Source: Candidatus Limihabitans stercoravium
GTDB taxonomy: Bacteria > Bacillota > Clostridia > Christensenellales > CAG-314
NCBI GenBank assembly: GCA_018715495.1
Contig: DVLO01000035.1
Location: forward strand, 1-64,000
Direction of reading: 5' to 3'
Length of the DNA: 64,000 nucleotides
Positions 54,951 through 60,354 of the stretch are shown here, piece by piece. Made by a program: the position numbers and the translations under genes. The notes below the pieces were generated by a model that was given only the letters and a program-made list of their open reading frames with translations, did no database searches and had not been told where the DNA came from. How positions within the stretch are numbered: position 1 is the stretch's first letter; every line of letters begins with the position of its first letter.

Positions 54951-56651
54951 ATGAAACTAAATTACAAACGCACGTTGTTTGTCGGATTTGCATTTTTCCT
55001 TATTTGTGCATTCTGGCAAGCATATGACGGAATCGTACCTCTGATGCTGGTAAACAAGTTCGGCCTAAACCAAACTTGGTCGGGATTTGTAATGGCACTT
55101 GACAACATCCTGGCACTGTTTATGTTGCCGTTGTTCGGCGCATTGTCCGACAAGAAAGACACCAAGTACGGCAAGCGCACTCCCTTCATTGTAATGGGAA
55201 CTATACTTGCTGTTGTGTGTTTCGTTGCACTGACATTTGTTGACAACGTACAACTCAACAAGATTACAGCACAAGGTCAGGACTACTTCTGGCAACAAAA
55301 CTACACTGTTACCAATTCCGAATACGACAGTTTCGGCAACAACGATGTAGAAAAACAATACACATTGCACGACTACACTTCACTGATGTTGTTCAACAAG
55401 CCTTACGATCAACTGACTGACGCTGAAAAGCAACAAGCACAGAACTGGTACGAAAACATCAATGAAGATACCCTTTACTCCTACGACAGACAGACGGATA
55501 CCTACACTGTGTACGAAAGTGCACCCGAAGGCGTCAAGACAACATCCGCCTACACAACGTTGGTAAACACCGCACGAAGCGGATTTGCACATGAAACCAC
55601 ACAAAACAGCGTGTGGGTACTGGTGATATTTGTAGTACTACTGCTTGCAACACTCATTTCGATGGCAACGTTCCGTTCGCCTGCAGTAGCATTGATGCCT
55701 GACGTAACAGTCAAACCGCTCAGAAGTAAGGCAAATGCAATCATCAACCTGATGGGTACTGCAGGCGGAATGATTGTACTGGTAATCGGTATGGTGTTCG
55801 GTACAGGTAAAATCGCAAACCAGATAATGAGTTACACAGGATACGTTGCAACGGTGTGTGCATTGATGGTTGTAGCGCTTGTCATCTTCATGTTTACCGT
55901 CAAGGAAAAGAAATGGAACGGCGAAATGCTTGCCCAACAGGCATTGCTTGACGATGACGAAACGGAAACAGTCATTTCAAATGATGAAGAAAACATTTCG
56001 GAAGTGGCAACGGTCAAGGTGGACACAAACGAGAAACTCCCCAAAGAGAAGTTGAAATCGTTGCTCCTGATATTGGCTTCAGTTGCATTGTGGTTTATCG
56101 GATACAACGCAATCACAAGCAAATACAGTCTGTACGCAGTAAACGTACTTGAAAAAGACTACAACACAACACTGCTCATTGCACAAGCGGCAGCCATTAT
56201 TGCCTACATTCCCGTTGGTATAGTTGCAAGTAAACTGGGAAGAAAACGCACAATTCTTATTGGTGTTGCACTGCTGACATTGTCTTTCGTGTGCGCAATC
56301 TTCGTTACAAGTCACACACCTACATTTGTAATCTGGGTGTTGTTCGCTTTGGCAGGAATTGCCTGGGCAACAATCAACGTAAACAGTTTCCCGATGGTAG
56401 TAGAATTGAGTTCGGGCGGAACAATCGGTAAATACACAGGTTACTACTACACAGCAAGCATGGCGGCACAAATTGTAACACCCATTTTGTCGGGTGCATT
56501 CATGGACTTGATGGGAACAATGCGTGTGCTGTTCCCCTACGCCGCACTGTTCGTTGCTCTGTCGTTCGTAACAATGCTCTTTGTAAAATACGGCGACAGC
56601 AAGCCAGAAACACCTCAAAGCAAGTTAGAAATGCTTGGCAATGACGATTGA
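54951..56651 (+). CDS. MFS transporter of the GPH/SLC45-like sugar carrier group
   Basis: A 566-residue secondary transporter with 12 predicted membrane helices. The first helix pair and loop (LICAFWQAYDGIVPLML, ALSDKKDTKYGKRTPFIVMG) carry the conserved D-K-x3-G-R-R/K-x-P-type motif between helices 2 and 3. A loop of about 110 residues (about 105-215) lies between helices 3 and 4 and is polar, with many Tyr, Gln and Asp; such a domain is not usual. A charged cytoplasmic segment (about 325-370) links the two halves. Likely imports a sugar or oligosaccharide with a cation; the substrate is unknown. The start ATG follows AAGGGG. It is monocistronic, with a terminator at 56694. Confidence 0.85.
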   Translation: MKLNYKRTLFVGFAFFLICAFWQAYDGIVPLMLVNKFGLNQTWSGFVMALDNILALFMLPLFGALSDKKDTKYGKRTPFIVMGTILAVVCFVALTFVDNVQLNKITAQGQDYFWQQNYTVTNSEYDSFGNNDVEKQYTLHDYTSLMLFNKPYDQLTDAEKQQAQNWYENINEDTLYSYDRQTDTYTVYESAPEGVKTTSAYTTLVNTARSGFAHETTQNSVWVLVIFVVLLLATLISMATFRSPAVALMPDVTVKPLRSKANAIINLMGTAGGMIVLVIGMVFGTGKIANQIMSYTGYVATVCALMVVALVIFMFTVKEKKWNGEMLAQQALLDDDETETVISNDEENISEVATVKVDTNEKLPKEKLKSLLLILASVALWFIGYNAITSKYSLYAVNVLEKDYNTTLLIAQAAAIIAYIPVGIVASKLGRKRTILIGVALLTLSFVCAIFVTSHTPTFVIWVLFALAGIAWATINVNSFPMVVELSSGGTIGKYTGYYYTASMAAQIVTPILSGAFMDLMGTMRVLFPYAALFVALSFVTMLFVKYGDSKPETPQSKLEMLGNDD

Positions 56652-56789: not shown

Positions 56790-56823
56790 ATAAAAAGACT
56801 GAGTTCACTTCGAACTCAGTCTT
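56790..56823 (-). terminator. Intrinsic terminator of the apbE-Gx-pdxK operon
   Basis: On the minus strand AAGACTGAGTTC and GAACTCAGTCTT form a 12-base stem with a five-base loop, followed by TTTATT. Confidence 0.9.
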
Positions 56824-56847: not shown

Positions 56848-57669
56848 TTACTTCACAAGGCTGTGCAAATTGCGTTGAAATTCAATGCCAAATCTACTGT
56901 CCTTACATTCCGTTCTTGCGATAGAACCTACAATAAAGGCAGATGCCCTGCGACATGCGTCAACAAGAGTTTCCCCGTTAGCAATTGCACCCGTTACTAC
57001 CGAACTGAACACATCCCCTGTGCCTGAGTAGTTGATGTCGGTGCGTTGATTTGTTACGTACCTGACTCCATTCTGCAACACAATGTTGCCGATAAGTTCA
57101 GGCATTACAACACCTGTTATTATTGCGCTTTTAGCGCCCGTTTCAGCACAGAAATTGCTGAATGTTTCACCTACTCTTGCCAGAAATCCCGATTGATTGC
57201 TTTGCGAAGTAATTCCGACAAAATCTCTGTCCGTCAGAAGACACGCTTCCGTAAGGTTGGGAGTGATGAAATCTGCCAAAGAAACAAGCTGTTTCATCTT
57301 GACCACGTACTGTTCATTGTAAATGGGATACAGTTTACCATTGTCACCCATGATAGGATCAACTACAGTCATCTTGCCACGTGACTTCATCTTTTTTACA
57401 ATTTCAATTACGCTGTCCAACTGTTGTGTACTGGTACAAAATCCGACGTAAACAATGTCCGGATTACCGTAACCGATGACATCATCTGCAAAAACTTCCA
57501 GTTGATCGTTACTGATGTAATGAAAGCCATGAAATCCCGTCTGACAGGAAAATGCCGACGTCACAACGGGATAGACGCAATGTCCCATTACTGACAATAT
57601 GGGCAAATTTACTGCCGTGGAACAGTTGCCCACGGCGGAAATGTCATTAATTGTGAGAATTTTTTTCAT
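56848..57669 (-). CDS. pdxK: Pyridoxamine/pyridoxal kinase (PfkB-like superfamily)
   Basis: ATP-dependent kinase that phosphorylates B6 vitamers for PLP salvage; 273 residues. It opens MKKILTINDISAVGNCSTAVNLPIL, the PdxY/PdxK start. It has VVDPIMGDNGKLY (about 99-111), ITPNLTEACLLT (about 134-145) and the anion-hole motif YSGTGDVFSSVV (about 213-224) with the catalytic Asp. The GDNG loop is typical for pyridoxamine kinases of Clostridia. The start ATG is preceded by AAAGG at a rather long spacing of about 12, and the gene lies three bases after the Gx-type gene. The functional link to the ApbE and Gx proteins is not obvious; PLP is not a flavin cofactor. Confidence 0.9.
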   Translation of the reverse strand: MKKILTINDISAVGNCSTAVNLPILSVMGHCVYPVVTSAFSCQTGFHGFHYISNDQLEVFADDVIGYGNPDIVYVGFCTSTQQLDSVIEIVKKMKSRGKMTVVDPIMGDNGKLYPIYNEQYVVKMKQLVSLADFITPNLTEACLLTDRDFVGITSQSNQSGFLARVGETFSNFCAETGAKSAIITGVVMPELIGNIVLQNGVRYVTNQRTDINYSGTGDVFSSVVTGAIANGETLVDACRRASAFIVGSIARTECKDSRFGIEFQRNLHSLVK

Positions 57670-57672
57670 ATA

Positions 57673-58221
57673 CTACTCAACCTTTACTTCGGGTTTATCT
57701 TCGTCCAAAAAGAAATACACCTTCTTGGGAACAAGTTTTACAATAAAGTACACTGCGTAACCGACAATTATGCCTGCTACAACGCCGATTACTGCAAGCC
57801 ACGGCATGTAACTGAACATCTGCGGTGTGTTAGAAACGTAACAGAACACTACATTCTGAGTGAGGTTGTGCACTACCGCCGACACAACGGAAATTGCAAT
57901 CAGTGAAATCTTGGGATAAACCAGTTTCATCAGAATTGAAGAAACAATGATACTGACTATACCTGCCGTCATGCTGTACATCAATGTTGACAGGTTGCCG
58001 ACAAACAGACTTCCCAGCAATGTGCGGACAACCACCACGACAAATGCCTCAACAGGTCCAAGCACAATCAATGTGTACAGCGAGAAGATGTTGGACAAAC
58101 CCATCTTCGCCCCCGGTATGAACAGCGGCGGAAAAAGGCTCTCAATCATGAACATGATCATGCTGAGTGCAGTAAAAGATGCCAGCAGTGCAAGTTTTCT
58201 TGCAGAAAATACGTTTTTCAT
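57673..58221 (-). CDS. Gx transporter family membrane protein (heptaprenyl diphosphate synthase component I-like)
   Basis: A 182-residue integral membrane protein with about five to six membrane segments. The pattern near the start (ARKLALLASFTALSMIMFMIES), then FIPGAKMGLSNIFSLYTLIVLG (about 35-57) and LLGSLFVGNLSTLMYSMTAG, is that of PF07456, an ECF-S-like family (EetB-type). Members are often paired with a NusG-domain-II protein and ApbE in Rnf or extracellular electron-transfer loci; here that partner is fused to ApbE immediately upstream. The start ATG at 58221 follows AGGAGG at eight bases. Proposed roles in the literature concern flavin or quinone supply, and are unsettled. Confidence 0.88.
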   Translation of the reverse strand: MKNVFSARKLALLASFTALSMIMFMIESLFPPLFIPGAKMGLSNIFSLYTLIVLGPVEAFVVVVVRTLLGSLFVGNLSTLMYSMTAGIVSIIVSSILMKLVYPKISLIAISVVSAVVHNLTQNVVFCYVSNTPQMFSYMPWLAVIGVVAGIIVGYAVYFIVKLVPKKVYFFLDEDKPEVKVE

Positions 58222-58233
58222 TGCAGACACCTC

Positions 58234-60135
58234 CTAAATGATAACTACAGAATCGCTGCCGTTGGAATTGTATCCCACCACTGTAATGCGGTGCGGCAGA
58301 CATACTATCGTGCGATTACTTGTAGTAATGGGGAAAAAGCTGTGTACGCAATCGGCGTAATTGCTGCAATTAGCTTCAGCTACGGTTACTTCGAAATACT
58401 TTTCGCCATTTTCTTTCTCAAGCTGTTTAGCCACAACCAGGTTGTAATGATCGCCTTCCATATCATTGCGCCGTACAGTGATGTACACATCGCCGTTCAT
58501 CCTGTTTACCGAAATTGTACCGTTGTCCCACGATTCGTTTACGACGCCGTCGTACTCATCGTCTGAAAACTTGGAAAAATCAAATGTATAAATTACCTTT
58601 CCTGTGGTATCGTCTGTGATGTAAAACTGTTCCAGAGCATCGGTTGTACTGTCGGTAAACACAAAGACAACAAACAACACGACAATTACAGCGGCAAGAA
58701 CTCCGTACACCGCAATGTCCGTTACCTTGAACGTCTTGCTGTTAGAAACGGCATTTACACGTTGCAATGCGGTTGTCTTGTTGTTGCTTCTTACCGTAAG
58801 AGTGATTGCAACAATGAGGAAAATTACGGCAACCGACACCACAATTCCGATGACTGCCTGTTTGTCTCCCTGCGGCTTGATGTTGTTGAAACTTACATGC
58901 AGTTTGCCGTCAATCATCTTGGAGCTCAGCACAATCTGATCCGTTCCGTAGGAAGTAAACCTGTCGGTAGACATGTTGGTGATCATGTGCTTTGTTTCAC
59001 CGCCACCGTCGTAAATGAAACTGACTTCAAGTTTGTTTTCGGCAAAGTAATCGCCATTGATAAACTCTACTGCCTTGTCAAGTCCCATTACAGTCAATGC
59101 CGTGGTAAGACAGTCGTCTTCCGCAGCACTTCCGCCAATGGTTGTGATCGTGACAATACCCGTCTGTGCAGGACGTCCGGTTGTTCCGTCAATGATGTGG
59201 GAATATTCAACGCCGTCTGTCGTATACTTGCGGTTGTACTGTCCGCTGGTAGAAATCATAACGTTTTCCACAAGCACCTCAGCGTAAGATGACCAACCGT
59301 TAAATGGATCCTGTAACCCCAGCTCCCATGACTTGCTGTCGGTGTACTTCAAAAAGGTGAAACTTGATGTTCCTACGTTTACATATCCCTTGTCGTAACC
59401 GTATTTTGTAATGATTTCTTTAGAAAGATCTGCTCCGTATCCCTTAGCGATACCGCCCAAGTCAATCCATTGCGTGTATTCAACGCCGTCAACGGTTACC
59501 GCAGGACAATTCTTTTCAACGTAATACTTGCCGTCTTTCTCGTAAACATTGACCTTGGAAAAATCCGTCAGTTTCAAAAATGCGTCAATGTACTTCTGTT
59601 CAGGCAACGGATAGCTGTATCCTTCCCACTTGCGGTCGTAAGGAAGATCACCGTTCAGGTGATAGGTACGTGAAGAAAATCCCCACAAGTCAACCAGACG
59701 GTAAACAGCGGGATTGAATGCGCCTTGCGTAATTTCATACATCTTGTGTGCTATGTTCAGCATTTCGTAGGTGTACCTGTGTATCTCAATGACTGCGCCT
59801 GTGTTGCTGTAATTGAAGTTATTGATGTCGCTGCCCACAGTCTGAGTGTCACTTACGGCATCAAGAGTTGACATCAGATTGTCTATTTCGGCAAACAGAT
59901 TTTCGACATTCGCATTAACTGTGTTCAGACTAAACGAGTCGTCATTGATTACAGTTTTAACGGCTATTCCAGACGTGCCGAAGTAATTTCCGTATGCCAT
60001 TGCACTACCGTTCGTATACTGGACATTATACCCGTCTCTGTTGAATACAATGACTTCATCCTGCTGTGCAAACGCTATCGGCGAAACACTTGACGCCACT
60101 ATTAAAATCAGTAGTAAAACAAGTAGTTTTTTCAA
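58234..60135 (-). CDS. apbE: ApbE FAD:protein FMN transferase fused to a NusG-domain-II module
   Basis: An extracytoplasmic flavin transferase of 633 residues. The signal peptide ends near AFAQQ (type I). Residues about 30-395 are ApbE with DLGGIAKGYGAD (about 225-236), HIIDGTTGRP (about 314-323) and the metal-binding EDDCLTTALTVMG (about 339-351); the enzyme attaches FMN through a phosphodiester to Thr/Ser of target proteins. Then two membrane segments (about 430-450 and 476-496) and a NusG-domain-II-like module (about 505-620) ending NRTIVCLPHRITVV. The start is taken as TTG at 60135, because GAGGTATAAA precedes it; the TTG at 60147 has no ribosome-binding site. No FMN-binding-domain target is seen in this window. 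Confidence 0.9.
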   Translation of the reverse strand: MKKLLVLLLILIVASSVSPIAFAQQDEVIVFNRDGYNVQYTNGSAMAYGNYFGTSGIAVKTVINDDSFSLNTVNANVENLFAEIDNLMSTLDAVSDTQTVGSDINNFNYSNTGAVIEIHRYTYEMLNIAHKMYEITQGAFNPAVYRLVDLWGFSSRTYHLNGDLPYDRKWEGYSYPLPEQKYIDAFLKLTDFSKVNVYEKDGKYYVEKNCPAVTVDGVEYTQWIDLGGIAKGYGADLSKEIITKYGYDKGYVNVGTSSFTFLKYTDSKSWELGLQDPFNGWSSYAEVLVENVMISTSGQYNRKYTTDGVEYSHIIDGTTGRPAQTGIVTITTIGGSAAEDDCLTTALTVMGLDKAVEFINGDYFAENKLEVSFIYDGGGETKHMITNMSTDRFTSYGTDQIVLSSKMIDGKLHVSFNNIKPQGDKQAVIGIVVSVAVIFLIVAITLTVRSNNKTTALQRVNAVSNSKTFKVTDIAVYGVLAAVIVVLFVVFVFTDSTTDALEQFYITDDTTGKVIYTFDFSKFSDDEYDGVVNESWDNGTISVNRMNGDVYITVRRNDMEGDHYNLVVAKQLEKENGEKYFEVTVAEANCSNYADCVHSFFPITTSNRTIVCLPHRITVVGYNSNGSDSVVII

Positions 60136-60168
60136 TTTATACCTCAAGTTCGAAATTCGCTAAATTAC

Positions 60169-60197
60169 ATTATAATTTACCCTGACACTTTTGTCAA
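60169..60197 (-). promoter_or_regulatory. Perfect-consensus promoter of the apbE operon
   Basis: Minus-strand -35 TTGACA (60192-60197), a 17-base spacer and -10 TATAAT (60169-60174): both boxes match the sigma-A consensus exactly. Expected transcription start near 60162. Confidence 0.92.
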
Positions 60198-60312
60198 AGA
60201 ATGTAACGCATTTGACAAACACATCTCAATTTTACCCGACAATTTTACCACACAAACCTTGATTGTCTGTTGAAATTGTCCGCATGTCAGCAAGATGAGC
60301 AAAAAAATCATT

Positions 60313-60339
60313 AAAAAAGGCGGTGAGTTGTCACCGCCT
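60313..60339 (-). terminator. Intrinsic terminator of the GH20-pfkA unit
   Basis: On the minus strand AGGCGGTGA and TCACCGCCT form a nine-base stem with a four-base loop, followed by a run of T. Confidence 0.93.
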
Positions 60340-60354
60340 CTTTTAAACAATTCA

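Follow-up and report, generated by a model that had tools for sequence, protein, structure and literature searches.

We report a protein in which the flavin transferase ApbE is fused to a NusG-II domain, most likely EetA, in Candidatus Limihabitans stercoravium and in nearly all surveyed genomes of the clostridial family CAG-314, where it is typically encoded beside a predicted FAD exporter of the EetB type. The operon probably constitutes a flavin-export and flavin-attachment module. EetA neighbours EetB in thousands of genomes, yet it has no known function; the main value of this fusion lies in gene-fusion evidence that would place EetA at the step where FAD reaches ApbE, allowing that role to be tested on a single protein.

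Operon organization

The window analyzed here, the whole stretch of 64,000 nucleotides taken from contig DVLO01000035.1, contains a minus-strand operon of three genes separated by 3-base gaps, which encode the ApbE-EetA fusion, the Gx-type membrane protein (EetB) and a pyridoxamine-kinase-like protein. The operon and its flanking elements are as follows.

60311-60346, minus strand: terminator-like hairpin that separates the upstream phosphofructokinase gene from the operon
60169-60197, minus strand: exact consensus promoter TTGACA-N17-TATAAT, read from the sequence
60142-60145, minus strand: putative ribosome-binding site GAGG, 6 bases upstream of the TTG at 60135
58234-60135, minus strand: ApbE-EetA (NusG-II) fusion gene, 633 aa
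57673-58230, minus strand: Gx-type membrane protein, predicted EetB (PF07456), with ATG at 58221 as a possible alternative start
56848-57669, minus strand: pyridoxamine-kinase-like gene, third in the operon, assigned by profile match and conserved as a neighbor
56795-56823, minus strand: terminator-like hairpin 3′ of the operon

The promoter matches the consensus exactly (TTGACA-17-TATAAT, from 60197 to 60169), as an earlier note on this DNA had stated, and such a match is seen once in the window versus 0.05 expected. The high expression that the note anticipated from it is unsupported, because the genome contains 46 such exact promoters, this one included (versus 3 with the reversed pattern). 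An Rfam search of the window returned no riboswitch and no other Rfam element. A gene for an MFS sugar-type transporter (54951-56651, plus strand) is convergent with the operon and occupies the same place in most relatives.

Architecture of the fusion protein

Both domains lie in one unbroken minus-strand frame (58234-60135), bearing out the single 633-residue protein of the earlier note. The mechanically predicted ORF spans 637 aa, with a TTG start that sits inside the likely ribosome-binding sequence TTGAGG, and a start at TTG 60135, which follows GAGG, yields 633 aa. The frame encodes the following regions.

60067-60135, minus strand: signal peptide of about 23 residues, MKKLLVLLLILIVASSVSPIAFA, from the sequence and model helix 2-16, with a predicted cleavage site
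59056-59919, minus strand: ApbE domain, from Pfam and the catalytic triad match
58660-58863, minus strand: two-helix membrane hairpin with a basic loop, from model helices 425-452 and 471-492
58270-58629, minus strand: NusG-II / EetA domain with three invariant cysteines, from Pfam, profile and alignment

Pfam recognizes ApbE at residues 77-364 of the protein (P0001; E 1e-52). Vibrio cholerae ApbE and Listeria FmnB have a Ser-His-Asp catalytic triad (PMC12052999), and Ser301, His317 and Asp345 (P0001 numbering), which align with the V. cholerae triad, are invariant across 12 aligned fusions; the predicted function of this half is the transfer of FMN to Thr or Ser residues of proteins. The Pfam NusG_II match (residues 552-623, E 7e-5) falls under Pfam's own cut-off, and a profile of the C-terminal domain with 16 EetA relatives matches the solved NusG-II-like protein Lin0431 (1.5e-18) and NusG (3.6e-5). 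Cysteines 594, 600 and 616 (P0001), near the C-terminal end, are invariant in 17 EetA sequences, both fused and unfused. Across the 17 EetA/NusG-II domains the cysteine spacing is C-x4/5-C-x13/15-C.

An AlphaFold2 model (mean pLDDT 82.5) comprises the signal helix, the ApbE fold, helices 425-452 and 471-492, which correspond to the two membrane segments that had been noted between the domains, and a beta domain at 503-622; a membrane helix followed by a beta NusG-II domain is the arrangement expected of EetA. Foldseek comparison of the model with the PDB returned ApbE structures as the best matches (E about 1e-20) and NusG as a weak one. Since the loop between the two helices is basic, both the ApbE and the EetA domain should face outward.

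Probable identity of EetB and EetA

The Gx gene product matches PF07456 (E 1e-34, above cut-off). Proteins of this family have been described as EetB, an FAD-binding ECF S-subunit needed for flavin export in Listeria protein flavinylation (PMC9973259). According to the available text of that study, EetA is the usual neighbor of EetB (3,328 genomes), eetB lies near apbE in 2,169 genomes, EetA-EetB fusions occur in 14 genomes and EetB-ECF fusions are also found, and deletion of eetA in Listeria had no extracellular-electron-transfer phenotype; the name NusG_II does not appear in that text. The Gx protein of the operon is predicted to be an FAD-exporting EetB that binds FAD. Gene position and topology are among the grounds on which we take the NusG-II protein to be EetA, an identity that the profile match and the three invariant cysteines also make the most likely one. 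The earlier note had correctly placed a Gx-type protein beside the fusion (its gene begins 3 bases downstream) and named both families, and it missed their identities as a predicted FAD-exporting ECF subunit and, most likely, EetA.

The genome contains a single ECF module, ecfA-ecfA'-ecfT-truA, and EetB would share it because only one EcfT is present. A dedicated second ECF-T gene (FmnA) was not found in the genome, which is 94% complete.

Distribution and origin of the fusion

A survey of ApbE-NusG-II fusions, which the earlier note had recommended, covered 297 genomes of the order. All 22 CAG-314 genomes gave a match, 21 of them with a full-length fusion and one (G135) with separate genes, and in the other families of the order a stand-alone EetA of about 156 residues comes after ApbE. 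A scan of named genomes, covering at least 80 loci, found four fused loci of the family, an apparently broken one (L064) and no fusion among 75 others; the named relatives with matches in the fusion scan are Clostridia of the goat, yak and rabbit gut. EetA matches were obtained in 237 of the 398 genomes of a phylum sample and, among the matches listed, only the source genome had a frame longer than 390 residues. The fusion was thus not detected outside CAG-314 in the genomes sampled. It was also not found in the searchable literature (for PMC9973259, the article text), where EetA-EetB fusions are reported. With the window included, 15 of 16 loci have EetB next to the fusion. Assembly error was rejected as an explanation, given that the fusion occurs in 20 other genomes of the family.

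The ApbE tree requires three changes of fusion state, one each for the distantly placed fused pair g5, for the principal clade of fusions and for L064, which falls within that clade. The tree therefore does not establish that the fusion arose only once. The L064 locus has the following form.

L064, 958-2804, plus strand: ApbE-EetA fusion, apparently split by a frameshift immediately ahead of the first membrane helix

Because the EetA frame of L064 opens partway through the first helix, the locus resembles a fusion disrupted by a frameshift, and for the same reason we rejected it as an ancestral unfused state; the split may be a real fission or a sequence error of the metagenome-assembled genome. 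L060, an unfused locus of the order, has an ApbE that already carries a membrane helix at its C-terminus and whose gene runs into the start of eetA, which suggests a plausible path to the two-helix hairpin.

These loci lend some weight to the reading that the stop between two neighboring membrane-anchored genes was simply lost, NusG-II being a mere tether with no special mechanism. Unfused relatives have both genes adjacent or overlapping, the ApbE of L060 already carries the C-terminal helix, one relative appears to have a broken fusion and the Listeria eetA deletion is without phenotype. Such a reading is possible but on the unlikely side, given that nearly all genomes of the family retain the fusion and its three EetA cysteines across widely diverged sequences (about 35-40% identity).

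As a separate observation, the record JAMPEJ010000002.1 (L065), titled 'Corallococcus sp.' (Myxococcota), encodes an ApbE identical to that of a genome in our set (G088:C9); it belongs to the CAG-314 Clostridia, and its title looks wrong.

Proposed mechanism

The domains, the intact catalytic residues, the gene order, the family-wide conservation and the candidate acceptors form the observed basis of a mechanism that we consider probable as a whole, with the role of EetA included. EetB, together with the shared EcfA, EcfA' and EcfT, would move FAD out of the cell, and the ApbE domain, on the outer face of the membrane, would split FAD and bond FMN to Thr or Ser of [S/T]GA[T/S]-type sites. The acceptors, RnfD, RnfG and surface lipoproteins encoded elsewhere, would then carry electrons outside the membrane. 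The membrane hairpin would join the EetA domain to ApbE with both facing outward, and EetA would either keep ApbE at the EetB exporter or help with the hand-over of FAD. We infer the topology, the export of FAD and the use of the named acceptors, and the role of EetA most of all. The flavinylation function put forward in the earlier note draws support from the domains, the neighboring gene and the candidate acceptors, and remains a prediction from sequence.

More tentatively, EetA may be a coupling subunit that docks ApbE on the EetB-ECF complex, with FAD passing directly from exporter to enzyme and the fusion representing this contact made covalent. From the fusion of EetA to ApbE it would follow that EetA acts at the ApbE step, the simplest way being to retain the transferase at the exporter; from the missing phenotype of the Listeria deletion it would follow that EetA may be dispensable. 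The cysteines admit another role, in which the EetA domain is a redox part whose three outward residues bind metal or cycle between thiol and disulfide, exchanging electrons with the flavin acceptors. Their invariance in fused and unfused sequences alike fits this proposal, but these residues might instead have a structural role, the domain shows no recognized redox cofactor motif and the Listeria deletion has no electron-transfer phenotype, which together make it unlikely.

Candidate flavin acceptors

No FMN-binding target lies in the window, as had been observed earlier, and all matches of the genome-wide search are on other contigs. The search for FMN-binding domains proposed in the earlier note yielded, with Pfam FMN_bind, one gene, a lipoprotein on contig C26 with the site TGATIS. 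A search with the lipoprotein of a relative added a lipoprotein frame of 690 residues on C39 that has TGAT sites at three positions, and a complete rnfCDGEAB operon lies on C29, its RnfD carrying SGATPLS and its oversized RnfG (616 residues) carrying AGATQSA, SGATNTS and the looser TGTTFSS.

L147:3233-5305 (C39), minus strand: lipoprotein
L144:12602-14452 (C29), minus strand: RnfG, 616 aa, with three candidate flavin sites

The published target motif of flavinylation is [S/T]GA[S/T] (PMC8238504), and all candidate sites other than TGTTFSS fit it or nearly fit it. RnfG is so diverged that Pfam barely sees it (E 0.98), and Pfam FMN_bind recognizes neither RnfG nor the C39 lipoprotein; we therefore rejected the single FMN_bind gene as a sole count of acceptors. 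The acceptor counts given here are minima. The Pfam search found one ApbE in the genome, with no second copy of the kind that the earlier note held capable of overturning its reading, and no separate NusG_II gene was found there.

The apbE/eetB genes (C30) and rnf (C29) are not clustered in the source genome. Of 15 relatives, 12 encode an acceptor-like lipoprotein no more than a few kilobases from the fusion, and at L217 eetB-rnf and eetA-apbE-lipoprotein lie together. These lipoproteins and the candidates at three other loci (C26, C39 and C29) lead us to regard the module as complete, with acceptors elsewhere, and to set aside the earlier description of the locus as incomplete in the sense of a defect. 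The RnfG of L217 is also multi-domain (469 aa).

The C39 lipoprotein and several neighbors of the fusion share a domain of about 215 residues that has no Pfam or NCBIfam family. Its members include the C39 frame (L147) and proteins of L045, L047, L049, L206, L207, L211, L214 and L217, and a TGA[T/S]-type site ends the domain in all 16 aligned members (CGAT in one). The domain is encoded directly 3′ of rnfB in four genomes of family f32, and at L217 it is part of the same polypeptide as an FMN_bind-like domain, encoded next to apbE-eetA and close to rnf and eetB. We consider it a candidate acceptor of ApbE, perhaps an extended version of FMN-bind2, a published domain of about 160 residues (PMC10979944). 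Homology to FMN_bind is unproven, because profile comparison with FMN_bind-like lipoproteins aligned only the N-terminal signal and first strand; an AlphaFold2 prediction of the lipoprotein domain from single sequence reached a pLDDT of 35.

The acceptors also bear on a rival reading, in which the module works for a chain of extracellular electron transfer like that of Listeria (Ndh2, demethylmenaquinone and PplA) and not for Rnf. The C26 lipoprotein resembles PplA in having an FMN_bind domain, but the genome has a complete rnf operon that carries candidate sites, and the single EcfT leaves no FmnA, making this very unlikely. A Pyr_redox_2 profile search of the genome gave 17 generic matches, among which Ndh2 and quinone genes were not told apart.

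Link to the pyridoxamine kinase

Among solved structures, the kinase most resembles putative phosphomethylpyrimidine and pyridoxal kinases. Its gene begins 3 bases after the Gx stop and follows or adjoins Gx in 10 of 16 fused loci, the window included; in five fused loci Gx has no adjacent kinase. ECF S-subunits in general serve many vitamins, and a Gx protein that transports vitamin B6 in place of FAD would explain the linked kinase, but the strong PF07456 identity, the near-constant pairing with ApbE-EetA and the loci with Gx alone make this scarcely probable.

Comparison with known systems

Together with the reported EetA-EetB fusions, the ApbE-EetA fusion would position EetA between the exporter and the transferase. 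The genomes of this gut lineage measure only 1.1-1.7 Mb, and they appear to have retained a flavinylation system whose candidate acceptors are Rnf proteins and surface lipoproteins. As in the EetA/EetB/FmnA/FmnB system of Listeria monocytogenes, so far as the available text of PMC9973259 describes it, an ApbE-type transferase, EetB and EetA are encoded together and lipoproteins are acceptors; unlike in that system, ApbE and EetA are here one protein, no FmnA was found, Rnf is among the candidate acceptors and a kinase gene follows. The EetA-EetB (14 genomes) and EetB-ECF fusions reported there are likewise fusions inside the same module and evidence of joint function, whereas here EetA is joined to the transferase and not to the exporter subunit. 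The Rnf-associated eetB/apbE clusters of Clostridia (572 genomes in the same text) comprise the same three families serving RnfD and RnfG, a layout that L217 has, while rnf is on another contig in the source genome. ApbE also shares a chain with a second domain in ApbE-DUF2271 (PMC8238504) and in the kinetoplastid ApbE-fumarate reductase (PMC12052999); in those proteins ApbE is fused to its acceptor, whereas in CAG-314 it is fused to the accessory protein that is most likely EetA.
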